Both the position numbers and the translations under genes were made by a program. From Bolinopsis microptera (lineage: Eukaryota > Ctenophora > Tentaculata > Lobata > Bolinopsidae): DNA of 64,000 bases. The stretch lies in the NCBI RefSeq assembly GCF_026151205.1, contig NC_087077.1:16156983-16220982 (forward strand). Reading direction: 5' to 3'. The notes beneath the pieces were generated by a model. That model was not told where the DNA came from, did not search any database, and worked only from the letters and a program-made list of their open reading frames with translations. Positions 25,435 through 62,790 of this stretch are shown here, one piece after another. Each line of letters starts with the position of its first letter. Within the stretch, counting starts at the first letter, position 1.

Positions 25435-26330
25435 GAGACGATAGCATATGGATGCTTTGACTACCTCTGGGGTATGGCAGTCCTGTGGGAGGATGCCGGT
25501 GGAATCAAGATGTGTAATCAAGGATGATGGTAAGTGTTGTGGGGTGTGTCATAGATGAACGCTTAAGTGGTGGTTGAGTGTGGAAGAGAGAGGCGAAATA
25601 AGACGGCGTTAAAGTAGTCGCTATGTTACACCGGTCTGGTCCAACTCCTCTGGCACCATTAAGCGTTTAGTGTGGTTTGCAAAGTTGACAATGGTGGAGA
25701 TGTGTTGATTGTCGAATATGTCATTGACAGAGAGGTATTAGTCCCGGAAATATTTACCTCTTATTTGGGTAATAGCCGAGCACTGTCCGAGAAAGTGTGA
25801 GACAGTCTCCTCTTCGTCGCCGCATTTAGGACAAGCACTGTTGTTACTGATTGTAGTGTTGAGATTTTTGATGATGTTGATATTTTTGTGTCCAAGTGTC
25901 AGTTTAGTGTGTCTGGGACCATCAGTAATCCATGATTCTTGATTAAGTTTGGTGACTTTGTCGTTGATCAGGCGTTTGATGTAAGATTGTGGAATTGGGC
26001 AATTCAAAGTGGATTCACTGGTTCTGCCATTTTTGGCCAGCTCGTCTGCTTTTTCATTACCCCACAATCCGATGTGTGCTGCTATCCATTTGATCTCTAA
26101 GGTGTTAGTGGATCCGAGTGTATTGAGGGTGTCGTAACAGTCTCTAGTAGTTCTACTCCTCGTTGAGGGCGAGGATATAGCTTGAATAGAGGAGAGACTG
26201 TCTGACCATATGATGATGTGTGTGTTGGTATAGGTTGATAGATATTTACAAGCTTGAATGATCTTTCCTCTAGTGTAGTGTTGTTGTTGTCAGTGGTGAT
26301 AATATAACAAGTGTTATCTTATTTTATAAT
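25435..26330 (-). mobile_element. 5'-truncated non-LTR retrotransposon (I/Jockey-like)
   Basis: This contains the RNase H-zinc knuckle frame and its 3' UTR (about 25450-25737). The 3' UTR segment at 25450-25584 is nearly identical to 27256-27391, so at least two insertions share the same 3' end. No poly(A) tail is evident. Confidence 0.65.
25738..26285 (-). pseudogene. LINE fragment: RNase H domain and C-terminal zinc knuckle
   Basis: The minus-strand frame reads from about 26285 to the stop at 25738. It begins YTRGKIIQACKYLSTY, then IIIWSDSLSSIQAI (RNase H block with the catalytic Asp), then KWIAAHIGLWGNEKADELAK, which is the H-x-G-x-x-GNE-x-AD RNase H C-terminal block. It ends with a zinc-knuckle-like CPKCGDEEETVSHFLGQC. 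This arrangement, RNase H followed by a cysteine/histidine knuckle, belongs to non-LTR elements of the I/Jockey-related groups. The RT and endonuclease domains upstream are missing, so the copy is 5' truncated. Confidence 0.8.
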
Positions 26331-28505: not shown

Positions 28506-28962
28506 CTAGAATATAGACTTTTGGAGCGGTAATTGTTAATTTAATTAAGGTTATTCAACCGCCTCTAAATCTATGATCGATATCGATATCGAAATATGCG
28601 CAACATATTTTATAATAAATGAGCTTAATTGCCATAAATCAGCCACTTGCTTGAAATATTATGAGATCTAATATTTAATTTCAGGCCCTCTTTATGGGTC
28701 TAAGTACTAGTATAAACTCTGATATTGGCTTAGACAATTGTTCTCCTAACAAACTATCCTTCTTCTCGTTCGATTATATCCGTAATAACAAGATATCAGT
28801 TGATATGATAAACAGTTCCTTATCAGGCCATGACGGAAATTAACTTTATACTTTTTAATAGCTTGCTTCCTTTTCACAGTGTTGGCAAGCTAGACCGTCG
28901 CCTTTCAGTGTGTCTTCAGGATCCAGTTTTAACCTAAAATTTGACAGATCCCACAATTGGGA

Positions 28963-29060
28963 CATAAATGGAAAGCATCTCGCACAGTTGATGTTGAAAT
29001 TGTGGGTAACATAAAACAACCTGGTGAACCGTTAAATACTTATGTTAAGTACATATTTAA
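28963..29060. repeat. Dispersed repeat, copy 1 of 2
   Basis: About 97 bp (gacataaatggaaagcatct, then cgcacagttgatgttgaaat, to ttaagtacatattt) recur at 30998-31093 in the same orientation, with about three differences. There is no ORF. Confidence 0.85.
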
Positions 29061-29278
29061 ATAGCGTTTTCTTCCTTAATCCTCCGGTACAATTCTGACG
29101 TTTGACCATCGTATGCCGCAAATGAGATCTCAGTCTCTCTTAGCATGGTTTGATATCCGATTCAGTTGTTATATTTTTATATAATACATTTGTTTCAGTT
29201 TCCTTTTTTGGCACATCCACGAAACCACTAAGCATCATTGAGTATCACTAAGTATCACTAATATCACATAAAGCGTGC

Positions 29279-29512
29279 ATGCACTGTTTACCGTTTGTAA
29301 CTCGGAGTATTCTTACTTACCCACAGGATGTTTTAGAACATCAACAAATGAAAAATAGGTTTGCTATGCTGGGGATTCCGGATTACGAACCCCTTCCAGT
29401 CAGTTTCAAGCTTGTCGCCCTGATTACATACTACATAATGATCAGCTCAAATTATTTATTACATAGTTGCGTTGAAAGTATTAAAACTTTAAACCATGTT
29501 TCAATCTTGTAG
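29279..29512. other. Unidentified open stretch, possible exon
   Basis: After an acceptor-like tract (ttacttacccacag at about 29326) the plus strand reads DVLEHQQMKNRFAMLGIPDYEPLPV, with coding-like composition. No partner exon and no family match are evident, so this is only weakly supported. Confidence 0.15.
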
Positions 29513-29584
29513 CATGAATAAAGAGAGTAATCAGCCTACAGAAAAAGGAGGTATCTAAAGAACTGAAAACTAGGGAGAAGGAAG

Positions 29585-29672
29585 AAGAAACAGAAACAGA
29601 AACAGAAACAGAAACAGAAACAGAAACAGAAACAGAAACAGAAACAGAAACAGAAAGGGAAACAGAAAGGAC
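29585..29672. repeat. Hexanucleotide microsatellite (ACAGAA)n
   Basis: About 13 units of acagaa, with one variant (agggaa) near the end. The Ser-Val-repeat open frame on the minus strand is an artefact of this array. Confidence 0.95.
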
Positions 29673-30997
29673 GGAGAAATGCATGGGGGTCGAGCCAATG
29701 GTGAGCGGATAACTTTCATTTTAATCTATCAGCTCAGATTTAAAGTCTAGGGTCTTCGTTTAGATGATTTAGGAGATTTGCTATATTATTATATAATATA
29801 TTATTTGACAGATATTGCTATATTGATTGAGTTCAATGGAAGGATTGTATATTTAAATGGTTGTTTCAAAATTCAGAAGCCTCCTTAAAGTTAATTTCGG
29901 TTAGAAACGCACAAGATTATTTTAAATTTTCTTGTTGTGTTCCACAACTGTAAAAAGTTATTGGTAGCTCTAAGGTCTATTGGCAACTTCTGAATTTTGT
30001 TTGTTGTTATGGCCACCATAGTATCATTCCAGGCACTACTCAGATTTAAAACTTTGATATAAATCATAATAATAATAAATATAAATCATATCATACGGTG
30101 TGTTTTACGTAAATATATAAACATTCTTCGTCATTCATTTCAATTTCCAGTATAGCATATTCATGGATTCTTGAGACTTTTGATACCTTCAACTTTTTAA
30201 ATTCAATAAATGCTTGAAATTAAGTAACTGCATGACTGTCTTTCTCAGGAAATATAAAACATGATGGTTATGATAATGCACTTTCTCAGGAAATATACAA
30301 AATGATGATAATGATTATAGCCCCACATGGTGTAGTTGTGGGAGAGGTGATTATGACGGAAAATTGAGTTCAGAAAATGTGAATCTGACACCTGTGGCTA
30401 ACAATGGTGAAGATAATCGTAAACTTTAGCATACAGTTTAGAGAAACAGCATGTATCTTGTTTAAAGTTTATAAACACGTTGCCACAGTGTCATGCATAG
30501 AACAACAGTAACAAATAATGTTTTACAAAACCAGTGAAGTACTCGCATGCAACTGCATAATCATTAAGTTATCATATAAATAAAATCATATAAATGGAAG
30601 TACTCAACAATTCCATGGCTTCTTACAAACTTGATTTAACTGAGTTCTGCTTAGAGTTAGATAATTTGTTAATTACTAATCGGTTTGTGGGATACTCAAA
30701 TTGTTGTCTTGTAGCAAACCAAGAAAAAATATTCTATCGATTTATACCAGATATTATCAACCACCTTCGTTGCCTTAATACGTAGATAGTGGAAAATTTA
30801 ACATTTTACACTTTATAAGATCCAATTACTGCGGAACTATTAGGAAGGTTAACTCGACAACATACCGGCGACACTTTTTCATTAGGCCCTTCAGGCCTTC
30901 AAAGTCATGGCCCCCTTAAATTATCAAAAAGGAAGCGATTTCGTGATAATATGTACCCAGTTGGGACGTGAGTGCCTTTTGGAGTTATGAATGACTG

Positions 30998-31131
30998 ACA
31001 TAAATGGAAAGCATCTCGCACAGTCGATGTTGAAATTGTGGGTAACATAAAACAACCTGGTGAACCATTTAATACTTATGTTAAGTACATATTAATACAC
31101 TTTATAAGATCTAATTACTGCGGAATTATTA
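30998..31131. repeat. Dispersed repeat, copy 2 of 2
   Basis: This is the second copy of the 28963-29060 block. It is followed by 'acactttataagatctaatt' plus 'actgcgga', which also occurs at 30809-30840 ahead of this copy. The segment has therefore been partly duplicated locally. Confidence 0.8.
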
Positions 31132-31731
31132 TGTGTATGTAACAATAAAAGGAGGGTTCTACTAATCTAAGTAAACTATAGGTAAAAATATAATATTAAT
31201 CATAAGCTAAAATGTACTAATCTTTGTATTCTAAATGGGGAAAAAGAAGAAACATTGTCAGTCAGTCGAGAAAATTGTCAGTCAGGCTATATGGCAGCTT
31301 TGTAGATGTTGTGACTATGCTAGTAGTTGTCCCAGGCTTGCGACTGGAATTGCGGTGTTAAATCGATTTAATGGTACCAACGATCCACCTCCCACTTGTT
31401 GTTTGGTACTTAGCATTAATAGTGTTAGCTGTAGCCATTTATAGCAAGAATCTTAAAACTAAAGGGGATGACAAGGAAAAGAGGAAGGAAAAAGAATAAC
31501 GGGAAAAACAATTAATTAAAGTATTTATAGGAGCATTAGATATTGTAATTACAAGCTTCAATAATAAATCACTGACTAAAACTTCTAATTAAAATGACAC
31601 TTGGTACGCTCGCCCATTTTCACTGGTCAGTCTGAACTTCGGTTTAGCACGTTGTACACTTATTCACCTAAGTTTCAGAATTTGTTCAGTTTAGCAGAGT
31701 TAGTACCCGTGTTTCAATAAATCAAAAGATA

Positions 31732-33110
31732 TCAGGGGAGTTCTTTAATAATGTTACGGTCATCTAGAATACCGACTTTCCTGAAAACGTTATCATATTT
31801 CCTCAGACAACGTTTAATGCCTTTAATCAGTCTATCACGGCTATATCCTCTATCAATTAGAATTTTTAATATTTTGTGAAGATGGGAGGTAAAGATATCC
31901 AATCTAGTGCAAACATTACCATATCTAAGAACTTGACTTGAAAAAACGTTGTAGCCAACCTCGGTTGGGATGTTACTGTGAGGAAATGTAAGGGATACAA
32001 CATGAAAATTAAAATCATCAGTTTTGTTATACACTGATATTTCTAGTCCTTCTGTGGAAATATTAATATTTAAATCAAGGTAGTTAATGATTTTATTATT
32101 GGAACCAGCTCGCTCCATCTCCAATGAATTAGGATAAATATCTTTAATCAATTTATGAAAGTAAAGGTAGTTAATAATAGATAAATCGTCAACATATCGT
32201 TTATTATTGGATAATATCTTTGCTAATCCCATTTTCTTTTCCTGAAGTAAACGTTTCATATAATTAAATTCCTTTTTGCCAACAGTGAGATCAGCTATAG
32301 GGGAACTTGAATTTCCACCCATAGGAATACCCTTGGTTTGTATGAATACAATCCCACCGAAGACGACATAAGTGTTATAAATAATAAATTTAACAGCCTC
32401 TTTTAGGTCATCTTGACTAAAGCAGGCATGACAATCATAGGTTTTATTGGAAAAGAAACATGTATTACTGTCTCTTTTAGAAATACAAATATATCTATTA
32501 CGGTCTGAAAATATTAAATCAACAACTTCATTAATCATATTCTCTACTTCAATCAAGTCTAATCTGGTATAAAGAGTAGTAAAATCATATACTTGTATAT
32601 TATAAACATCGCTATTTTTGATAGCTTCAAGGAATTCACTTGAGGAATCTATGCTCCAAAACATGTTTATACCGCTGTTGTTGTAGATTGCCTCGCAGTA
32701 TTTCTTGAAGTATTTCCTCAAAAGTTTCAGACAACAGTTAACTTGGACGTTAAGTTGTTTCGTAACGCAAAAACGGGCACCTGCAATGAACCTCGCCTTG
32801 TAAGGGTTCTTATGAAGCTTAGGGTTCCAGAAGATGCGTGCTAGTCGCAAGTTTTTATCTTCAACTTGTACATTAAATCTCTCCTTTAGACTCTCAGATA
32901 TTTTATTGACATAATGAGTCTCGTCTTCGCTACAGGGTTTATATGTATCATTACCTATACATTCTAGAGTATTAGGATCAAAACCCATTTCATTGACAAG
33001 AGTTTTTACATAAAACTTTTTACAAATAAATGAAAAATTACCAGAAGCTTTGTCGATACTACAAATAATGTATTTACTTTTCAGCAATTTAAGACTTCTT
33101 TTAACATCAT
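31732..33110 (-). CDS. PLE reverse transcriptase segment
   Basis: The frame is open from about 33110 (LEKDDVKRSLKLLKSKYIIC) to the stop at 31732. RT motifs are in order: ARIFWNPKLHKNPYKARFI (fingers), YDFTTLYTRL (motif A with the catalytic Asp), KGIPMGGNSSSPIADL (motif B) and RYVDDLSI (motif C, YVDD, both Asp present), then NYLDLNI in the position of motif D/E. A cysteine-containing insert (SNKTYDCHACFSQDD) lies between motifs A and B. This layout is typical of Penelope-type RTs, relatives of telomerase. All catalytic residues are intact. The frame is offset by one base from the endonuclease segment, with the switch in ggAAAAAga (33103-33112). It is probably one ancestral ORF of about 950 codons. 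Confidence 0.87.
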
Positions 33111-34489
33111 CTTTTTCCAGTGTGTTTTGAGTTTTCTTTTATTTCAAATGTTTCAGGAAAGTTTTTCTTGTAATATTCAATACGATTGGAAACTATTGAT
33201 AACACTTTTTCCTTCCAATCGCTGAACTTTACTTCTTTTTGACAGTACTTACTACTTTTTGATTTTATAAATTTATCGACAGCTTCGGTAACTGACATAT
33301 ATATCTCATCTGGAGATTTAAATGTGGGAATTCTGTATTTACAACCGTAGGAAAGTACTTCCCTAAGTTCAACATTATCAACAATATCTAAATTACCAGT
33401 AACTACATGTCCATGAGGAGGATAATTGAAAGGGGAGGAGTGACAATCGCATGGACTACCTAAAATAGATTTAATATCAGAAATAGAAAGTTTCTTTAAG
33501 AATGAAGCATAGTTACAAATAGAAAGACTTATAGGATCATTATACTCATAATAAATCTGTAATGGTGTAAAAGACTGAATCAAAATGGGAAGCAAATCAA
33601 TGACTGAAGTGTCAGAGAAAATAGATTTTAGGTTAAGATTATCAATGAATTTGCAATTAAATGGAACAATTATAAATTCTCTATTACTGGATTCAGATTT
33701 GTTCTGATGGTATTTGGGGGAAAATGTTGAACAGAAAGAGGAACATACGTTGTAAATCAATCCTGAATTATATTGACTCAAAGAGTAGAGAGTGTCTAAA
33801 TCTGATAAGCTATAACATTTTAATGTTTTGTATATGGAATGTTCTGAAGAGATGTTATCTTTCAGCCTGTTAATATCAGACTCTATGGTATCCAGAGACT
33901 TCTTAGGCTGAACTTTCTTCTTTCCATTCCCTCTGCCACGTTTGTATCGAGCAATCTGTCCACTAAAATAATTCATAACCCGATCTTGGGAGATGTTGCC
34001 CGTTCCTTTCTTCTTGTCATTAAGACCAAGAGGGAATGCTGTCCCAAGCTTCTCTATCCAGTAATCCTCCAGGAGAAGTAAATCATTTTTGACATCAGTG
34101 GACATGTCAGAATCAACATAATCTACAATCTGTATGGAAGCATCTGAGAAGACGTGACCAGGAATATTAAAATGTTCATATAAAAATGTGGATGATTTGG
34201 CTTTGACACAATTTCTGTGGCCATTGACTCTTTTATGAAGTGGTTGAGTTGTTTCTCCAACATATTGTTTTTTACAGGTAGAACAGGTAATAACATAAAT
34301 AACATAAATAACATTATTAGTTTTACAATTAAATATAAAATTTGTATGTCCAAAGATAAAATCATTATTAAAAGTACTGCTCCTAAATGTATTAAAAGGA
34401 TTAAAACTGTTGCAAGTGAGACAACCTCTACCATTGCAACATCTAAAAGTGCTAGAAAAGACATTACTAGGGGTTACCCATTTATTCAA
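33107..34489 (-). CDS. PLE endonuclease segment: GIY-YIG plus CxC linker
   Basis: This is the N-terminal half of the Penelope-like protein. It opens with a cysteine cluster (FRCCNGRGCLTCNSF). The GIY-YIG nuclease core follows: IYVIYVITCSTCKKQYVGET (the GIY and YIG equivalents are IYV and YVG), then a C-x2-C and His pair (PLHKRVNGHR) of the CCHH type found in PLE endonucleases. A later GSPCDCHSSPFNYPPHGHVV block at about 33425-33452 is the CxC linker. The role is to nick DNA for target-primed insertion. The frame is open upstream of the first listed codon to a TGA near 34523. In the neighbouring frame an ATG at 34604 begins MSDPLSLAYLESLGLGG and runs to RDDVTFLT, so the true N terminus probably joins by a one-base shift. 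The 3' end (stop 33107) meets the RT frame at an A5 run. Confidence 0.82.
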   Translation of the reverse strand: MNKWVTPSNVFSSTFRCCNGRGCLTCNSFNPFNTFRSSTFNNDFIFGHTNFIFNCKTNNVIYVIYVITCSTCKKQYVGETTQPLHKRVNGHRNCVKAKSSTFLYEHFNIPGHVFSDASIQIVDYVDSDMSTDVKNDLLLLEDYWIEKLGTAFPLGLNDKKKGTGNISQDRVMNYFSGQIARYKRGRGNGKKKVQPKKSLDTIESDINRLKDNISSEHSIYKTLKCYSLSDLDTLYSLSQYNSGLIYNVCSSFCSTFSPKYHQNKSESSNREFIIVPFNCKFIDNLNLKSIFSDTSVIDLLPILIQSFTPLQIYYEYNDPISLSICNYASFLKKLSISDIKSILGSPCDCHSSPFNYPPHGHVVTGNLDIVDNVELREVLSYGCKYRIPTFKSPDEIYMSVTEAVDKFIKSKSSKYCQKEVKFSDWKEKVLSIVSNRIEYYKKNFPETFEIKENSKHTGKR

Positions 34490-34504
34490 GGATTTTGAGA
34501 AAAA

Positions 34505-34790
34505 TTTACCATTACGTTTAAGTCAAGAAGGTAACATCATCCCTTTCGGCGTTTCCGCCTAGACCCAACGACTCGAGATAGGCCAAGGACAACGGGTCGG
34601 ACATCAACCTATTGTCATGGGGCTGCCATGATTGGGCGGGCGTTAGATGTCATGAACCTAAATAGTTCTCCCACCGACGCAGTGTAGCCTGGCGAGATTC
34701 TTCGCGACCATAAAAATCTCTTAGAACCGGATCTTGCACTGCCGCTGTTTCTCGTACCGTAGCATGGCGGACAGCTCACGCCAGAAAATG
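34505..34790 (-). other. GC-rich leader ahead of the PLE, open except for TGA
   Basis: This block is clearly GC-richer than the PLE body. On the minus strand one frame runs from about 34775 to 34514 with TGA codons at 34776-34778 and 34650-34652 and no TAA or TAG before the end. It passes through DPVLRDFYGREESRQATLRR, then WENYLGS, TGA, HLTPAQSWQPHDNRL, MSDPLSLAYLESLGLGG. It may be the 5' coding part or leader of the element, or unrelated sequence into which the element inserted. Confidence 0.4.
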
Positions 34791-35469
34791 AAATAAACAG
34801 GTAAATACAGGATAAATCAGGAGATGTATGTACAACAACAAGACTTCAAGGAGGGCGCCCAAGAAAACAAAGATCAACCAAATCTCGGAACCAATGGCCG
34901 GGAGAGATATAAATGTAATTATAGAGCAATATCAAGAAAAGCTATCAATTATGTATCCAACGGGGCGTACTAATAGTACGAAAAAGTCCGACACAGCGCC
35001 GTTGAATTCCACGGTGTAATTCCGTCCGGGCTTTCTACCGAGCTGTCCAGCTTTTAAACATAAACCCGTGTTCTGCCTTTAAATTTGTTTGTAGATTTTG
35101 AAGCGTAACATATAATTTCTAAGTACAGTTATCACTCAGTTACGGTTTAATGATGATATTTATTGCCTTCCTGGATCAATAAAATAAAGTAACAATAACA
35201 ATTACTCGTAAACTCGGTTATTGCAATTTGCACCTAATATTAAAGTAGTAAGCGCACTTAAAATTGCTCATATTCCAATTTACACTACATCACCAGGTAC
35301 CAGACTTGATATTTACACTTCTGTTCGTTATTAAGTTGCTTTAAAAAACCCTCCATATCGCTGGTGGCCACTAGACGTCTACAAGTACAAGGCAGTAACA
35401 GTTAGAGGTTTAAAAATCCAGACTCCCCCTCACCCCAGTGATGGCGTCCTTTATGTCCGTGTGCTCAGG

Positions 35470-36200
35470 TTAGCTCGAATTAATAAGGCTGCTAGACATT
35501 AGACAGACATAAATATTAAAAAGCTTTATAATGTTGAAATCAAACTTTGGGTGTCTTTCCGAATTACAAAATATAATGACCACAGCTCCATACCACTTAA
35601 AAGTTGAACTTCTAAATACAACTTCCATAACTTTCAATGCGATATCGATAACTTTAATTACAATATCGATAACTTTAAATGCAATAACAACGATAACTTG
35701 AAAGTTAACATGTAATATCGATAACTTTAAATTCAAGTTGGATATGCCAATAAGGGATAACCTGTTACTCTGTTAAACTCAGTAGATATCCTCTCCGTAC
35801 CATGCACGTAGAAAGTTTAACAAAGAATTGATGGCCTGAGACCCCGTCAAGACTGAAGACCAGCCTAAAGTTTGGTCGTACTCAAGGCCTTAAACCCAGA
35901 TATTTATGTTTCATTGCTGTTCAAAATCGAGAAGGTTGTCCTATTTCTGAGGACAGTGAGTCTGAAGACTCACTGCTAATGCCAATAACATTAAATGCGA
36001 TGTCAATAATTCAAAATTCAAGTTGGATATCCGTACCATGCATACGTAGAATGTTTAACAAGACATTGAGGGTTGGAGGACGGAGATCAGGGTTGGTTCA
36101 GACTGAAGACCGGCCTAAAGTTCGGTCGTATTTAAGGCCAGATTTATGTTTTATTGCTGTTCACGATGAAGGCGGCTGTTATATTTCTTAATGCTTGTTT
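35470..36200. repeat. Diverged direct duplication, about 250 bp, with ATCGATAACTTTAA runs
   Basis: The block at about 35730-35955 (aagttggatatg, ccgtaccatgcacgtagaa, agactgaagaccagcctaaa, gtttcattgctgttc) recurs at about 36020-36190 with many changes. The left part (35620-35735) contains five 'atcgataactttaa' type units. Also, 'ccttcctggatcaataaa' at 35165 resembles 'ccttcttggatcaataaa' at 36444. No coding content is recognised. Confidence 0.7.
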
Positions 36201-36506
36201 TTAGTCTTACTGCCAGAGTGCCAATGTCAGTATTTTCTTAGGCGAGATCAGTGAATTTAATTTTCCATTTTTAAACTCGATCGTCTTCTATCTTTAAATA
36301 TTTAGCCAGATTTGACAACATCGTAGTTAAATTTTTTTAATCGTAGTTGAATTTAAAGTACAGCTGTTATGATTCAATACCGTTCTAATTGGCAAAAAGT
36401 GAAAATCATCACAGCTTTATTTAATTTAAAATCTTATTTCAAGCCTTCTTGGATCAATAAATTAATGAAGTAAGAACATTAATACAAAGAAGGTTATTAT
36501 GCGATT

Positions 36507-37772
36507 CTAACGACACATGTGTTCATGCCTGTAGACTCCGTCAGAGCACTTGATGGTGCCGGAAGGACACCCCTTACAGCTGCCATCGCAGTTTCCACAA
36601 GTCTTCTGGCAGTAGCCCTTAACAATATGCTCGTATGTGCAGTGTGCACCACCACTCTTGACAAGTTTCCGTGTAGGAGTCCTCGCAGTCTTGATCTGGA
36701 GCAGGACCACTCCCATCACCATCCGCGTTATAGTCAGCTGCTCTGTTATAACCCTCCGGTATCAGAGGAACCAGTTGAGGCAAGTTTAGGGTAGCTGCTG
36801 TACTCCCATAGGTTACAGTTGTGGTGATTTCTTGCGAACTTAACAATCCTTTGTCTGCCCAGCTGGATCCCCAGGAGTTCTTAACCAGTACGTAATCCTC
36901 AGTGTAACCGACAGCTGTGACAGGATGGTTGGGCCAACCTGTGCATGTTTCGTCCCTGAGGATGCCGCTAAAGTAAAACTGGAAGCTGTATGTCACTTCA
37001 AAGGCCACAGAGACAGAACCCGAAGCCAGAGCTTCGATGTTAGCTTATCCAGTGCCTCCTACTTTCACTGCTCCTCTGATTTTAGCAGCTATCATAGCGT
37101 CTGGGGTTCTGGGGTTCTGGAGCCTTGACAGACGCCGTCTCTCTCTGTGTAAGGGTAGTCAGCTTTGCCAGCCAGTCTTTCCCCGTTACTGGCTGAGTAC
37201 TCGTAGCATTCATCAGGCCATCCACCGTTGCAACTGTCTCTAGATCCCTCGTACACACAGTCCAAGTACTCCTGCTCAGCGAACTTCCTCAGGACACCAG
37301 ATTCCACAGCATATCTCGTCTCCAGTCCACCAACAGCTCCCCAGGTCCAGCAAGATCCGCAGCTCCCGTTATTATAAACTTCCGTGACCTTTCCTTCATC
37401 TGTCCAGAGTTTGCTTGCAGGTGCATCAGCTTCTCCACTGCTCGTCAAAACAGGTTTAGCGTTCTTGTTGTGTCCTGTTACAGACCTCTGTATGAGATCT
37501 GCTCCGATTCAGTCATTGTAGAAAAGAAGTTCAGCTGCAAACACGGCAGTTTCTTCGTCCACAGAGTTCGCATCTGCTACCATCTCATCGTTCTCCCGGA
37601 ATTAAAGTCGGAACCTCAGTCTATCCTCCACCTGGTTGAACGCGAGGTGTTGCTCTACCTTGAAGTTGTCATACAGCTTCAGGGTTTCTTTGGGAGATCG
37701 CAGGACAGCTTTCAGACAGGATTCCTTTGCCAGCGAGGCACCAAACAGGGCAAGGATAAGAACGAGCTTCAT
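36507..37772 (-). pseudogene. Cathepsin (C1A papain-family) protease with ShK-like domain, broken
   Basis: The minus strand begins at ATG 37772 with a signal peptide (MKLVLILALFGASLA). Traces of an I29 inhibitor prodomain follow (LKLYDNFKVEQHLAFN), then the mature papain-fold part: NNGSCGSCWTWGAVGG (catalytic Cys), then CTGWPNHPVTAVGY (His) and YVLVKNSWGSSW (Asn). A linker and a six-cysteine ShK-like domain end the protein. The oxyanion-hole Gln of the usual NQG is Asn here (NNG). The frame is broken at several places: TAA at 37602-37604, shifts near 37535 and 37480, an 8-bp tandem duplication (37103-37118), TAA at 37045-37047, and a shift inside the ShK-like domain near 36652. There are no introns, but no poly(A) or flanking duplication proves retrocopying. 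It is not functional as read. Confidence 0.85.
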
Positions 37773-39142: not shown

Positions 39143-41175
39143 ATGAAAGATAACATCCTGTGTGTGGATAAGATACCCCTTCTGACCAAGAAGTTATACC
39201 AAGCCGGACCTAAGAGTGCTATTAGAGACAACCTCATTACTATCAATGTGTCCGGGAGACCCTTCATTATAGACAGGTTTTATTGTAGACCCTTCGGTAT
39301 AGAAAGGTACAGGTTTATATTGTAGTACTAGTGTTATTATGGTAATATTACCTTATATGGTAGTGATACTATGGTGATATTACCTTATATGGTTATGTTA
39401 AACACCTCCTTAATTCCAGGTGCTATCTGGAACAGTACCCAACAACTCTGTTGGGATCCGGCGAGATTGAGAACTATTGGGACCCCAGGTAAAAGATAAA
39501 TTGTCCTGCTTCTACATTAAAAAGAAAAAAACTAAAACGGGCAATTAGTTCTAGGTAACCGCGATTACTAGTGTTCTTCATTGATCTCTTCTAAATGCTT
39601 ACTCTCCCAGGTATAACGAGTATTTCTTTGACACTCACCGGGACGCGTTCGAGAGCATCTTTGATTTCTACCTGTACGGCAAGCTATACCCACATCCTAA
39701 CGTGCCTGCCCCACTTCACCATGACAACGTGGAGTTCTTCAAGATCATGAGCGTGTTTGATGCTCAGGAACTGATGGAGGGAGGAGAACATACCATCAAG
39801 AAGAAGAGCAAATACGCGAGTATCAGGGGTGAAATACACAACACGCTGGAAGATCCCAGTACTTATCTGATAGGCAAAGTGTACGGGTGGGCGGATCTGT
39901 TGTTTATTCTGCTCTCCATAGCAACCATGTTAGTGGAGACTATCCCTCACATTCACGCCGTCTCAGATATCCCAGGCTCAATGGAAAGCAAGCTTTTCTT
40001 TGCTCTGGAAACTGCAACTGTTGTCTTCTTCACTTTTGATGTACTTATAAGAGCTTTTGCTCACCCTTCCAGGCTTGAGTTCTTCAAGTCCCCCGCTAGT
40101 TGGCTCGATATATGCACCATCGCCCCCTTTTACATAGAGCTCTTAGTCGACTTCTCCAAACTGGAGTCCATGAAAGTACTCAGAATTGCACGTGTAGCAC
40201 GAGTGTTGAAGCTGATAAAGAAGAACAAACGCTTGCAATTGATTGCGGAGGTGCTGATGAAGAGTGTCAGTGAGTTGGCCATGTTGGTTATAGTCTGGGC
40301 TATGAACATTACAGTTGCTGGAGTCGTGTTTTACTACCTGGAGGAAGGCAGTGAAAGTAACCTCATTACTAGTGGGGTGGATGGTATGTGGTGGGCTATC
40401 GTTACCATGAGCACTGTCGGGTAAGTAACGATAGTTACCACGGTAACTAGTCTCGTAACTACGGTAACTACTAGTCTAGTTAGAGCACTTCAATCACTCA
40501 TTCACTCAGACCTCTCACTAATTCTCACGTGTCTATCATCACCTGCCCACGTGACTATCATCACCTGCCCACGTGTGAATCACGTGACCCATATTACCTA
40601 TAATAGCTTGTAGATTATATTTACCGCCATCACTTGTTTAAGTTAATAGGTAATGAACGTGTCTAACACTTACGCGTCTTTTATGACTTTTTAATTGCTT
40701 TATAAATTAAATTAAGATAGTTTAAATTATTAGATTGTCTATCATCCACCACGATTACTGTGATCCACGACGTTAAATACACAAATTTAGGGGCTAGCCT
40801 TTTCACCATCCCTTAATTAAGTTAATAGGTGGCATTAATAGAAATAAATTAATAAGCTTTATACGCTTCACTACAGCTTCAACATGAGATAATCTCCCAC
40901 CACAGTGCCTAACACATGGTTAACTCGTGGTTTGTCACCATGACAACGCCTAACACGTGGTTTGTTTCAGGTACGGTGATATATATCCAGAGTCCTTCGT
41001 GGGCAAGATCTTCGCAACTTTCTTCATCTGGGTCAGCATGGTGTTCCTAGCTCTCCCCCTTACAATCATTGTCAGCACTTTCAACAAACAATACGAGAAA
41101 AAGAGGACCCTAACTCTAAAACAGAAAGGGGCCATGACCAAGACTGTTCCTATGATGCAAAAGAACGGGGGATAA
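39143..41175 (+). CDS. Voltage-gated K+ channel alpha subunit (Kv, Shaker-related), four exons
   Basis: Exons 39143-39276, 39420-39488, 39611-40420 and 40971-41175 (all GT-AG, all introns phase 2) give an intact 405-residue frame. T1 tetramerisation domain at about 28-130 (LITINVSGRPF, YLEQYPTTLLGS, YFFDTHRDAFESIFDFY); no HxxxC/CC zinc site is seen, so it is not a typical Kv2-4 T1. S1 about 156-178, S2 193-217 (FFTFDVLIR, with Asp where Shaker has Glu), S3 230-250, S4 254-275 (MKVLRIARVARVLKLIKK, basic at all six gating positions), S5 282-310, pore TMSTVGYGDIYP, S6 350-372. The S6 hinge reads LALPLTIIVSTF: the usual PVP is PLT, losing the second proline, as in vertebrate electrically silent Kv subunits. 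Intron 3 splits the GYG filter. The cytoplasmic tail is short. ATG 39143 fits the family, but an AG at 39121-39122 leaves room for an upstream exon. Confidence 0.92.
39257..39318 (+). repeat. Tandem duplication across Kv exon 1 end and donor
   Basis: A 30-bp period: agacccttcattatagacag then gttttattgt (39257) repeats at 39287 as agacccttcggtatagaaag then gtacaggttt. The second copy provides another possible donor (AAG|GTACAG). Only use of the first donor (39277) keeps the conserved T1 spacing. A second short duplication (tattaccttatatggt) follows at about 39347-39395. Confidence 0.75.
40434..40447. promoter_or_regulatory. X-box-like palindrome in Kv intron 3
   Basis: GTTACCACGGTAAC matches the RFX X-box consensus GTNRCC-N2-RGYAAC fully. 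It sits 14 bp inside intron 3. A second imperfect unit, tcgtaactacggtaac, follows directly. Function is inferred only. Confidence 0.35.
40527..40588. repeat. CACGTG (E-box) cluster in Kv intron 3
   Basis: Four CACGTG palindromes lie within about 60 bp: two 22-bp tandem units (cacgtgtctatcatcacctg, then cc) and a further pair (cacgtgtgaatcacgtg). Similar CACGTG clusters occur at 58.8 and 59.2 kb. They may be bHLH binding sites or simple repeat growth. Confidence 0.5.
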
Positions 41176-48142: not shown

Positions 48143-49514
48143 GGGGGGGGGGGGGGGGCCAATGGATATTTTTTTGTGAAACTTGATTTCGAGATAGTAG
48201 TTGACCAACAAACTAAGACCAGTGACCGAACTTTTGAGGGGGTCCCGGACCCCAACCGCCAAACGGTGCGCGCAGGGCAGCCACGCCCATATTTGGTCCA
48301 AATTAGGCCCAATTTAGCCAAATACCCTGAACATGCCCAAAACCAAGGTTTATGGTGCTCTACTTGTAGCTAGTGGTCTCCTGAACTCGTATATGAAATT
48401 TCATCAAGATTGGACGAAAAATGACTGAGTTATGAGCCAAAAACCATATGCCCATATTTGGGCATACGCACCAAATTTGGTAGATTTCGGCCCATAAATT
48501 GGTCAAATATCAATATTTTTGAATGAAACTTACTTTATATGAAAGGTAAGCCTAAACTACATATTATCTGTAAGTTATATCTTTATATCTGTTTAAATGT
48601 GGATACTAAGGCGAAAAAGCCACAAAAAATGAACTAAATTGCCCATATCTCGGTTCGCGATATTTGCGGAATTGATCTCATTAAAATTGTAACAACTCAA
48701 TCAGTTTTCAAAATTTTTGCATGAAATTTTCGGAATCGACTCGAAATTGCATTTCCACCTTATTTTAAATACGGATTTTTGATTTAGGCCTCCAAAAAAA
48801 TTTGGCGGCCAAACTCCAAAATAATCTCACAAAAATTCAGAATTTGGCCGCCAAATTTTTTTGGAGGCCTAAATCAAAAATCCGTATTTAAAATAAGGTG
48901 GAAATGCGATTTCGAGTCGATTCCGAAAATTTCATGCAAAAATTTTGAAAACTGATTGAGTTGTTACAATTTTAATGAGATCAATTCCGCAAATATCGCG
49001 AACCGAGATATGGGCAATTTAGTTCATTTTTTGTGGTTTTTTCGCCTTAGTATCCACATTTAAACAGATATAAAGCTATAACTTACAGATAATATGTAGT
49101 TTAGGCTTACCTTTCATATAAAGTAAGTTTCATTCAAAAATATTGACATTTGACTAATTTATGGGACGAAATCTACCAAATTTGGTGCGTATGCCCAAAT
49201 ATGGGCATATGGTTTTTGGCTCATAACTCAGTCATTTTTTGTCCAATCTTGATGAAATTTCATATACGAGTTCAGGAGACCACTAGCTACAAGTAGAGCA
49301 CCATAAACCTTGGTTTTGGGCATGTTCAGGGTATTTGGCTAAATTGGGCCTAATTTGGACCAATTATGGGCGTGGCTGCCATGCGCGCTCCGTTTGGCGG
49401 TTGGGGTCCGGGACCCCCTCAAAAGTTCGGTCACTGGTCTTAGTTTGTTGGTCAATTGCTATCTCGAAATCAAGTTTCACAAAAAAATACCCATTGGCCC
49501 CCCCCCCCCCCCCC
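48143..49514. mobile_element. Near-perfect 1.37-kb palindrome flanked by TTAA, G/C-run ends
   Basis: The sequence from 48143 inward is repeated inverted from 49514 inward with only scattered mismatches. Each arm is about 670 bp, around a loop of about 30 bp near 48815-48845. The outer ends are a G16 run (48143-48158) and a C17 run (49498-49514), bordered by TTAA at 48139-48142 and 49515-49518. No transposase frame exists; the open frames inside are mirror images. It is best read as a long foldback MITE using TTAA targets, distinct in sequence from the 16.5-kb element. Confidence 0.8.
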
Positions 49515-60689: not shown

Positions 60690-62790
60690 AAGACAAACCC
60701 ATGCAAGTGCATTTAACTGTAAACAACCCAGTTGATGACAGAACTCAAGTCCGTACAAGGATCAACAGGTTACAGAAAGACATCCGTAAGCATCTCAAGA
60801 ACCTTGCTGACACACGTGCCGATGACAATCGCTCGAACCATCATGTCAACAGATGACACAAGGCAGATGTTTGAAGCTGTGCGTACTCTAGCTGACACTA
60901 AGCCCAAATCTACTATCAGTGTCCACAATGAAGAAGGTAACTTTGTTGCCACAGATGCTGGTAAAGCTCAAGTGATCAGAGACTACTACGAAAAAGCAGT
61001 TCACGTGTGAGGATTGAACCACTTCAAGCATTTATAGGGGATGGACGCTGCCTAGACATACCCATCACATGTGATGAAGTAAAGAAAGCCGCCCAATCTC
61101 TCAAGAACAACAAAGCCACTGATCCAGATAAAGTCTACAACGAGTGGTTGAAAAATGCTGGTACAAAATTCTGGTCAAAATATGCCGAGATCATAAATAG
61201 CGCATTGGAGACCAATTCATTTCCTGATGTTATAGGTGAAGCCATCATCACCCCCTTACCGAAACCTCGCAAACCAGCTGGTCCTGTCACTAGTCTACGA
61301 CCTCTATGTCTATCAAATGGTGCTCGTAAGATATTATCCATGATTGTACTGGAGAGAATTGAAGACAAAGTTGATGCTTTCACTGGTAGCACGCAGGCGG
61401 GGTACAAACATGGTAGAAGTTGTGGTGATCTAGTGTGGGCTGAGCGGATGTTGATATCGGTTGTCACGCGTAAACACTTCCAGTATCACAAGATGGGCAT
61501 AGATATGTCTCGAGCATTTGACACAATCAAACGCCAGACTATACTTGACCTTCTTGTCAAAGCTGGATGCACAGACGACGACCTCAGGCTAGTAAGACTC
61601 CTCTTAACCAACACCATGCTCAAGGTCAGAGTGGAAGTAGAACTATCTGCTGTATTCGAGAGTCTTCTTGGGTCCTTTCAAGGTGACAGTCTCTCCGGCA
61701 AGCTTTTCACTCTTGTCCTAGCAGGAGCTCTTATAGAACTACGCCATCGACTAGCAGAGTCTCCCCCACACATACCCAATCCCCCTATTTCAAAAGAAGG
61801 TATGCCACTGGAGTCAGCGTATTCAGATGATTGTAACTTCATGAACGTGGAAAAAGAATCCTTAGAAGCTATCCTACCAATAGCTAAGGAAGTCTTCAAG
61901 GAGTTTAACCTGTTCATTAACACAGAGAAAACAGAATTTACCCATGTTTTCCTCGCTCCTGTTGGAGAAACAATCCCTGGTCGTGATGATACCATGTTAC
62001 GTGGAAATGAAGATTGGCGGAAGAGTAAGATTCTTGGGTCATTGTTGTGTAGTGAAAGTGATATAGCTGCTCGATGCATTGCTGGGAACAATGCCTTCTA
62101 TAAGTTCACCAAGATCTGGTCTCAGCAGAATATCTCCGTTACCAGAAAGATAGCAGTATACGAAGCCCAAATTGTATCAATCATCATGTACAATTGCAGT
62201 AGTTGGTTTCCTACTGCAAAGTCACTAGAAAAACTAGACATTTGCCATAGAAAACACCTTAGATCATTACTGAACATTTATTGGCCTCATGGAACAATAT
62301 CCAATGCAAACTTATACCTAAGATGTAACTCAGTTAAGCTATCAGATCGTGTCCCTAAAGCAAGGTGGAAGCTCCTAGGTCATATCTTGCGTAGTGCTGA
62401 TGACTCCCCCGCTGCATTAGCGTTAAAGTTTGCTGTCACAACAAACTGTAAAGGGCGCGTCGGTGCGCATCGTAAGAATTTGTTCAAGATTATTGTGAAT
62501 GATTTGACCCGTAGAGGTTTAAAACTTAACTCTTTGAATGATCTTAATAAGCTTAAGATATTAGCCGATGATAGAGTTGCTTGGAGAAACAAATTTTAAC
62601 TCTAGCTGTCTTGATCTGTACTGATCACCATTTTAGGATGACTTGATTTCTCTTAGGGGTTTTGAATATTTTAATGGTGTAAACAGTTTCTTAATAATAT
62701 AAATTTATTTATTTATCTACGATATTATGTTCTTTTTATTTGGTTGAATAACTTTCATTTAACTGATTGGGATCTGACACACGTAATTTT
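60690..62790 (+). mobile_element. 5'-truncated non-LTR retrotransposon
   Basis: A plus-strand RT coding region followed by about 200 bp of 3' sequence with no long tail. No endonuclease frame is seen upstream, where the sequence changes to the minus-strand LINE copy A. It sits between two copies of that other LINE. Confidence 0.7.
60732..62599 (+). pseudogene. LINE reverse transcriptase, frame broken near its start
   Basis: The main frame (61007-62599, 530 codons) has the order of a non-LTR RT: ITPLPKPRKPAGPVTSLRPL (fingers), GIDMSRAFDTIKRQTI (motif A, catalytic Asp), GSFQGDSLSGKLFTLVL (motif B), AYSDDCNFM (motif C, YSDD instead of the usual YADD), then WRKSKILGSLLCS and a C-terminal ARWKLLGHILRS block. 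An N-terminal piece in another frame (60732-61010: STDDTRQMFEAVRTLAD and so on) joins near 61008 by a one-base shift. A third frame at about 60735-60830 holds RTRINRLQKDIRKHLKNLAD. The RT core is complete with both catalytic Asp of motif C, but at least two frame changes and a missing endonuclease make the copy defective. Confidence 0.82.

Follow-up and report, generated by a model that had tools for sequence, protein, structure and literature searches.

How is the protein of a retrotransposon made when its open reading frame (ORF) offers no ATG at which translation could begin? The question is raised by a Penelope-like element on the minus strand of the 64-kb stretch of DNA analysed here (the window), in which a GIY-YIG nuclease precedes a reverse transcriptase (RT). 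The nuclease frame opens directly after TGA 34525-34523, and no ATG is present from the frame opening to the nuclease core; the first methionine is residue 139 counted from AAA 34519. The main finding is the RNA directly upstream of this ORF, which the earlier note on the locus had missed and which resembles the type 6 internal ribosome entry sites (IRESs) of dicistrovirus intergenic regions. We place at roughly 0.78 the probability of our favoured account, in which a Naiad-like Penelope retrotransposon, damaged in this copy, has its nuclease-RT ORF translated independently of AUG, driven by this IRES-like RNA.

The comparison was made with relatives found in genome contigs, where a search with an RT motif pattern returned 12 stretches, five of which encode full or partial relatives (L011, L014, L016, L017 and L018). 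The contigs that carry these five are short (3.7-6.1 kb) and had been assigned to bacterial or archaeal bins; they are presumably eukaryotic contaminants. RT identity to the window element is 48% for L011 and 37% for L018, and the nuclease half of L011 is 40% identical to that of the window. A FastTree tree of the RT alignment consists of three pairs, namely the window with L011, L014 with L018, and L016 with L017, the last with a support of 0.877. L011, which has a 934-codon frame open throughout, carries a TGA at the same place as the window element and likewise has no ATG before the nuclease core.

RNAalifold applied to the window and L011 gave hairpins with compensatory changes, and the helices were then laid out by hand. 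The parts in the window are listed below; P1.1, L1.1a, P1.2, L1.1b, P3.1, P3.2 and the SLIII-like hairpin (SL, stem-loop) come from manual pairing, and PK denotes a pseudoknot.

34520-34742, minus strand: type-6-IRES-like RNA, 223 nt (manual pairing, covariation, covariance model of the P1 part, flank conservation)
34765-34783, minus strand: upstream hairpin HP1, stem nGGCG/CGCCn, loop UGAGCURUC, common to L011
34742-34737 with 34684-34679, minus strand: helix P1.1
From 34733, minus strand: L1.1a, GAUCC
34720-34715 with 34699-34694, minus strand: helix P1.2
Loop GGCUA, minus strand: L1.1b
34709-34705 with 34599-34595, minus strand: PKII, GGUCG/CGACC
34654-34668, minus strand: SLIV-like hairpin, loop AUUUA
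34651-34642 with 34608-34600, minus strand: helix P2, enclosing the SLV-like hairpin
34615-34631, minus strand: SLV-like hairpin, loop CAGCC, with five of six pairs altered on both sides between the window and L011
34592-34585 with 34545-34537, minus strand: helix P3.1
34584-34577 with 34569-34562, minus strand: helix P3.2
34559-34548, minus strand: SLIII-like hairpin
34520-34524, minus strand: 3' strand of PKI, GACUU, pairing with the loop GAGUC at 34574-34570 and overlapping UGA 34525-34523
34517-34519, minus strand: AAA, the codon predicted to be read first, in the nuclease frame

From 5' to 3', HP1 is followed by P1.1, the GAUCC loop, a CCGG/CC-A-GG step, P1.2, the GGCUA loop and the second strand of P1.1; after these come the AUUUA hairpin, P2 around the CAGCC hairpin, the PKII strand, P3.1, P3.2, the SLIII-like hairpin and PKI. 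Neither HP1 nor the SLV-like hairpin was seen in L018.

Between the window and L011 this RNA is conserved beyond chance: their 5' flanks align with a score of 161, whereas 300 dinucleotide shuffles averaged 38 and never exceeded 59, and the 3' flanks score an unremarkable 66 (largest of 300 shuffles, 77). The core layout recurs in the window, L011 and L018, with helices that differ in sequence. Among 50 pairs tallied in the three elements, from which P3.1, SLIV and SLIII were left out because their lengths differ, both partners have changed in 24, a single partner in 4 and neither in 22; two of the 50 are broken, each in one sequence. PKII consists of five Watson-Crick pairs in every element and is nevertheless distinct in each (GGUCG/CGACC in the window, GGCUG/CAGCC in L011, GUGGG/CCCAC in L018), and three of the five pairs covary; shuffles of the loop and segment gave pairings as good in 583, 210 and 2340 of 20,000 cases, respectively. 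PKI is GAGUC/GACUU in the window and L011 and GGGCC/GGCUC in L018, with 390, 445 and 430 of 20,000 shuffles as good (window, L011, L018); the first two share the same letters, probably by descent, and therefore do not count as independent. A covariance model of the P1 part only (R1; 83 columns, built from the window and L011) matches L018 at E=2.8e-5 in a search of 21 sources comprising 206,306 bases, where the sole other match outside the training sequences has E=4.9. The codon directly after PKI opens the nuclease-encoding frame in all three elements, being AAA in the window, ACA in L011 and ACU in L018, and the proteins of L011 and L018 have an N-terminal Thr-Lys in common after PKI.

We propose that the 5' RNA would fold into a compact structure of three domains, an L1.1/PKII domain, an SLIV/SLV-like middle domain and a 3' PKI domain, in the last of which an anticodon-like loop would pair with the pentanucleotide that immediately precedes the first codon. 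By analogy with type 6 IRESs, the folded RNA would bind the ribosome and place PKI in a tRNA site, and elongation would begin, probably independently of initiation factors, at the codon after PKI (AAA, ACA or ACU, according to the element); the UGA before the ORF, as part of PKI, would be left undecoded. In L018, P1.1 begins 249 nt past the stop of a separate upstream ORF (226-870), and the nuclease-RT ORF would thus be a second cistron.

Type 6 IRESs contain two nested pseudoknots with an L1.1 loop and, in some subtypes, SLIV and SLV, and their terminal pseudoknot mimics anticodon-mRNA pairing directly 5' of a non-AUG codon (PMC10516663, PMC12221177). The element RNA has the same domain order, L1.1 loop, PKII, and PKI before an in-frame non-AUG codon as the type 6 IRESs (PMC10516663, PMC12221177, PMC8002689, PMC4132737). 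In the L1.1 internal loop, between the covarying P1.1 and P1.2, GATCCGGTT and GCCAGGCT are invariant in the three elements, and GAU and GCU there agree with the residues mutated in the type 6 IRES work of PMC10516663. AUUU, given as the SLIV loop in PMC8002689, occurs in the SLIV-like hairpins of the window and L018 and weakly in L011; the SLV-like loop is CAGCC in the window and L011, for which PMC12221177 prints CCGAC in an uncertain reading order. Start codons reported for subtype 6f include ACA and ACU, and those for 6e include ACU; AAA is not among the start codons named in the accessible text (PMC12221177, PMC10516663). Such structures are also described in Tombusviridae and Narnaviridae (PMC12221177). 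The RNA described here differs in lying in a retrotransposon; the string 'transpos' has 0 occurrences in the main text of PMC12221177. A pattern of the loop motifs was tried on viral contigs and returned four stretches, one with a cmsearch E of 0.79 and the rest with no match, which we treated as chance; blastn of the 5' RNA in phages gave no match.

Several observations weigh against an IRES of this kind. The fold is drawn from only three sequences, and its helices were assigned by eye and counted afterwards. Single-sequence folding energies are ordinary (z of 0.17 and -0.84), P3.1 of the window has five Watson-Crick and three G-U pairs among its eight, and the SLIV-like stem of L011 is weak. 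A strict automatic descriptor matches L011 and L018 and misses the window, and it also matches 2, 5 and 0 of 300 shuffles (window, L011, L018). Over the whole flank, the similarity of L018 is weak, with shuffles as good in 2 of 200 cases against the window and 12 of 200 against L011. A search with R1 of the genome of L018 itself did not return L018; over the genomes of the five relatives, R1 returned L011 and a weak match elsewhere (E=0.80). Of the four relatives whose 5' end is present, L014 and L016 have no R1 match and have frames that start with ATG, L016 with only 234 nt of upstream sequence. An in-frame AUG occurs in L018 at residue 49, just 5' of the cysteine motif. In the window and L011, the stops between the ORF and the nearest in-frame ATGs upstream are all TGA, so that stop codons do not bar read-through. 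PKIII, which is described for most type 6 subtypes and as absent in 6c, was not identified by eye. Lengths of 223 nt (window) and about 226-227 nt (L011) exceed the published range of 126-205 nt, within which L018 falls at 146 nt. Finally, Rfam at E<=10 gave no IRES or ribozyme family on the 5' RNA of the three elements, only weak unrelated matches, the best being MIR7533 on L011 (E=0.26). Because no Rfam IRES family matches, we do not file the 5' RNA as a type 6 member; that it may work like a type 6 IRES is better supported than that it is one. A selenocysteine insertion sequence (SECIS), a hepatitis delta virus (HDV)-like ribozyme and other known ribozymes were also considered as the identity of the 5' RNA and set aside, with no such match in Rfam.

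The conserved 5' RNA could instead serve another task, as a signal recognized by the element protein or as a ribozyme of an undescribed self-cleaving kind, with translation starting at a conventional near-cognate codon. There is precedent for functional RNA near the ORF start in the Penelope element of PMC11167929, where the first 172 nt of the ORF are required in the template and a hammerhead overlaps the start codon, and near-cognate codons are present before the nuclease core; but by eye these codons have no shared positions, the end of PKI coincides exactly with an ORF codon boundary in each of the three elements, and the domains come in the order known from the IRES. We consider this account unlikely. 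Two known retroelements are comparable to the IRES-like arrangement favoured here. R2 elements have an ORF without a conventional AUG, and a role in promoting translation is attributed to their structured 5' RNA. The window element shares with R2 the AUG-less retrotransposon ORF and the structured 5' RNA, whereas R2 uses an HDV-like ribozyme fold, a family that was not matched here. The Poseidon element PAc of Anolis (PMC11167929) likewise has a Penelope-like RT with GIY-YIG and structured RNA around the start of its ORF, but its nuclease is C-terminal, its RNA is a hammerhead and its start codon is present.

The UGA before the ORF might also be read through from an upstream AUG, for instance as selenocysteine. 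Naiads of clams and spiders encode selenoproteins, the TGA occupies the same place in the window and L011, and upstream in-frame ATGs exist at 18 and 21 nt in the window, with one TGA between, and at 132 nt in L011, with two. The leader so added would be 6 or 7 codons in the window, compared with 44 in L011; in L018 this TGA is lacking, and the upstream ATG is separated from the ORF by a TAG lying 60 nt upstream; no SECIS family matches in the window or relatives; and neither window frame contains an internal TGA. Read-through thus appears very improbable. Splicing around the UGA was set aside too, since by eye, with no splice-site program run, no acceptor was seen that would skip the UGA yet keep the shared N-terminus. 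The other damage in this copy (frameshift, 9-bp duplication) would fit an ordinary Naiad that has lost or broken its 5' end, with the missing ATG a lesion and the upstream DNA unrelated. Against this, L011, with its open 934-codon frame, is likewise ATG-less there and has the upstream RNA in common, and we find the account scarcely credible.

The protein part is an ordinary new Naiad-like element. Its features are as follows.

33110-34519, minus strand: ORF portion encoding the nuclease and linker (GIY-YIG 34306-34166; CDC 33451-33443)
31735-33138, minus strand: RT part of the ORF (YVDD 32196-32185; stop 31734-31732)
34289-34314, minus strand: tandem duplication of 9 bp within the GIY strand, which the four relatives aligned there lack
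33107-33138, minus strand: zone of broken reading frame between nuclease and RT, with one frameshift in this copy

ORF analysis placed the protein in two frames of the minus strand that overlap: 34522-33107, whose 471 codons cover the nuclease and linker, and 33138-31732, whose 468 codons cover the RT. Pfam GIY-YIG matches residues 73-119 of the nuclease frame (27.1 bits, E=5.3e-6, cut-off 22.6), and the RT half has no Pfam family at E<=1. The earlier note had described a GIY-YIG domain before the RT on the minus strand, with CDC between them and YVDD intact, and Pfam, the sequence itself and the alignments with relatives confirm this. It had also called the element nearly intact; the domains and motifs are present, but the nuclease and RT are separated by a frameshift, and the duplication puts three extra residues into the GIY strand. 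The frames of L011, L014, L016 and L018 are open and stop-free through the zone equivalent to this frameshift. The end of the element had been set at 34604, which turns out to be the first letter of an ATG that is not in the nuclease frame and lies inside the structured RNA. No second copy was found in the window by tblastn.

In the alignments, the CCHH residues C80, C83, H102 and H117 are invariant in five nuclease sequences, as are Y76, Y87, G89, R98, E152 and N168; the linker CxC cysteines C358 and C360 are invariant in five sequences and the RT aspartates D185, D317 and D318 in six. An AlphaFold2 model of the RT from the six-sequence alignment (pLDDT 70, pTM 0.70) replaced a single-sequence model that was too poor (pLDDT 35), and all 16 of its matches in the PDB at E<=0.001 are telomerase (best 6zdq, 6.3e-9). 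Three short strands (residues 216-241) lie between motifs A and B in this model, with no superposition on the telomerase insertion in fingers domain (IFD). No hammerhead ribozyme family is among the Rfam matches at E<=10.

Naiads reportedly have an N-terminal GIY-YIG nuclease with CCHH, which is said to be absent in Chlamys, a CxC linker and a C-terminal telomerase-related RT; they are also said to have an IFD between RT motifs A and B, no canonical hammerhead, pseudo-long terminal repeats (pseudo-LTRs) or a tandem arrangement, and an insertion bias to microsatellites. The window element shares the N-terminal GIY-YIG with CCHH, the CxC linker, the C-terminal telomerase-related RT and the lack of a hammerhead match, and because of this domain order and these features we call it Naiad-like, as the earlier note had proposed, in the sense of its architecture. 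It differs in that its IRES-like RNA and ATG-less ORF are not part of the reported description and in that its ORF has no internal selenocysteine codons. Pseudo-LTRs, which the earlier note had suggested looking for, did not appear: no repeat joins both flanks in 29000-37000, and there is one copy only.

Searches for further members gave little. No additional RT copy was found in a search of the genomes of the five relatives, no relative came from one protein scan of genome contigs, and the RT half has no tblastn match in phages and plasmids. In viral contigs, two protein scans and a profile search gave no relative, and exact patterns gave either nothing or stretches without a relative. Among the relatives, L017 (1172-3808, minus strand) encodes, as a single frame, a fusion of a Naiad-like RT with a ubiquitin carboxyl-terminal hydrolase domain at the C terminus (Pfam UCH, E=5.6e-27). 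The upstream ORFs of L018 (226-870, plus strand) and L014 (4129-4506, minus strand) are similar by eye and resemble an L1-type ORF1; in Pfam, the former has weak matches only (including Tnp_22_trimer, E=0.044) and the latter none.

Downstream of the element lies one further candidate RNA.

31332-31389, minus strand: candidate type-P5 twister ribozyme (Rfam 28.8 bits, below the gathering threshold of 37.6)

Its E-value is 0.0055 when 6.5 kb are searched and 0.054 for the whole window, and it lies on the same strand some 340 nt past the RT stop; no twister was found in the five relatives at Rfam E<=10. Such a ribozyme could leave the element RNA cleaved and uncapped, and an IRES would then be useful. 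It may instead belong to a neighbouring element, since truncated twister ribozymes are described at the 5' ends of RTE retrotransposons (PMC7761336).

Other repeats and genes lie around the element in the window. A 544-codon frame with an RT domain (60965-62599, plus strand; Pfam RVT_1, E=4.1e-17) is probably a non-LTR element, and an RNase H domain (25738-26289, minus strand; E=2.1e-7) with a zinc-binding RT-associated domain below the cut-off represents the remains of another retroelement. Pieces of a papain-family protease and a BTB/ion channel gene (36619-37508, minus strand; 39585-40424, plus strand) suggest animal nuclear DNA. A long near-perfect hairpin at 48779-48883 (minus strand), matched by several microRNA families below threshold, is probably an inverted-repeat element. 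A 97-bp repeat with 97% identity occurs at 28961-29057 and again some 2 kb away at 30997-31093; nearby lies a pair of 36-bp repeats, at 30807 and 31096.

According to PMC12221177 and PMC8002689, it is not known how the type 6 IRES mechanism arose. A tentative reading, possible rather than probable in our view, is that factorless, tRNA-mimicking IRESs are not solely viral and form an old part of Naiads, present in at least two deep lineages (the window with L011, and L018) and possibly exchanged with dicistro-like viruses in either direction, with the element RNA perhaps uncapped after ribozyme cleavage. If the IRES-like RNA acts as proposed, the type 6 mechanism would have a non-viral relative, or a convergent case, that is searchable across animal genomes, and this would bear on where the type 6 IRES device came from. 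It would also account for the translation of an ATG-less retroelement ORF, and for the way in which ATG-dependent gene predictors cut or miss such ORFs.

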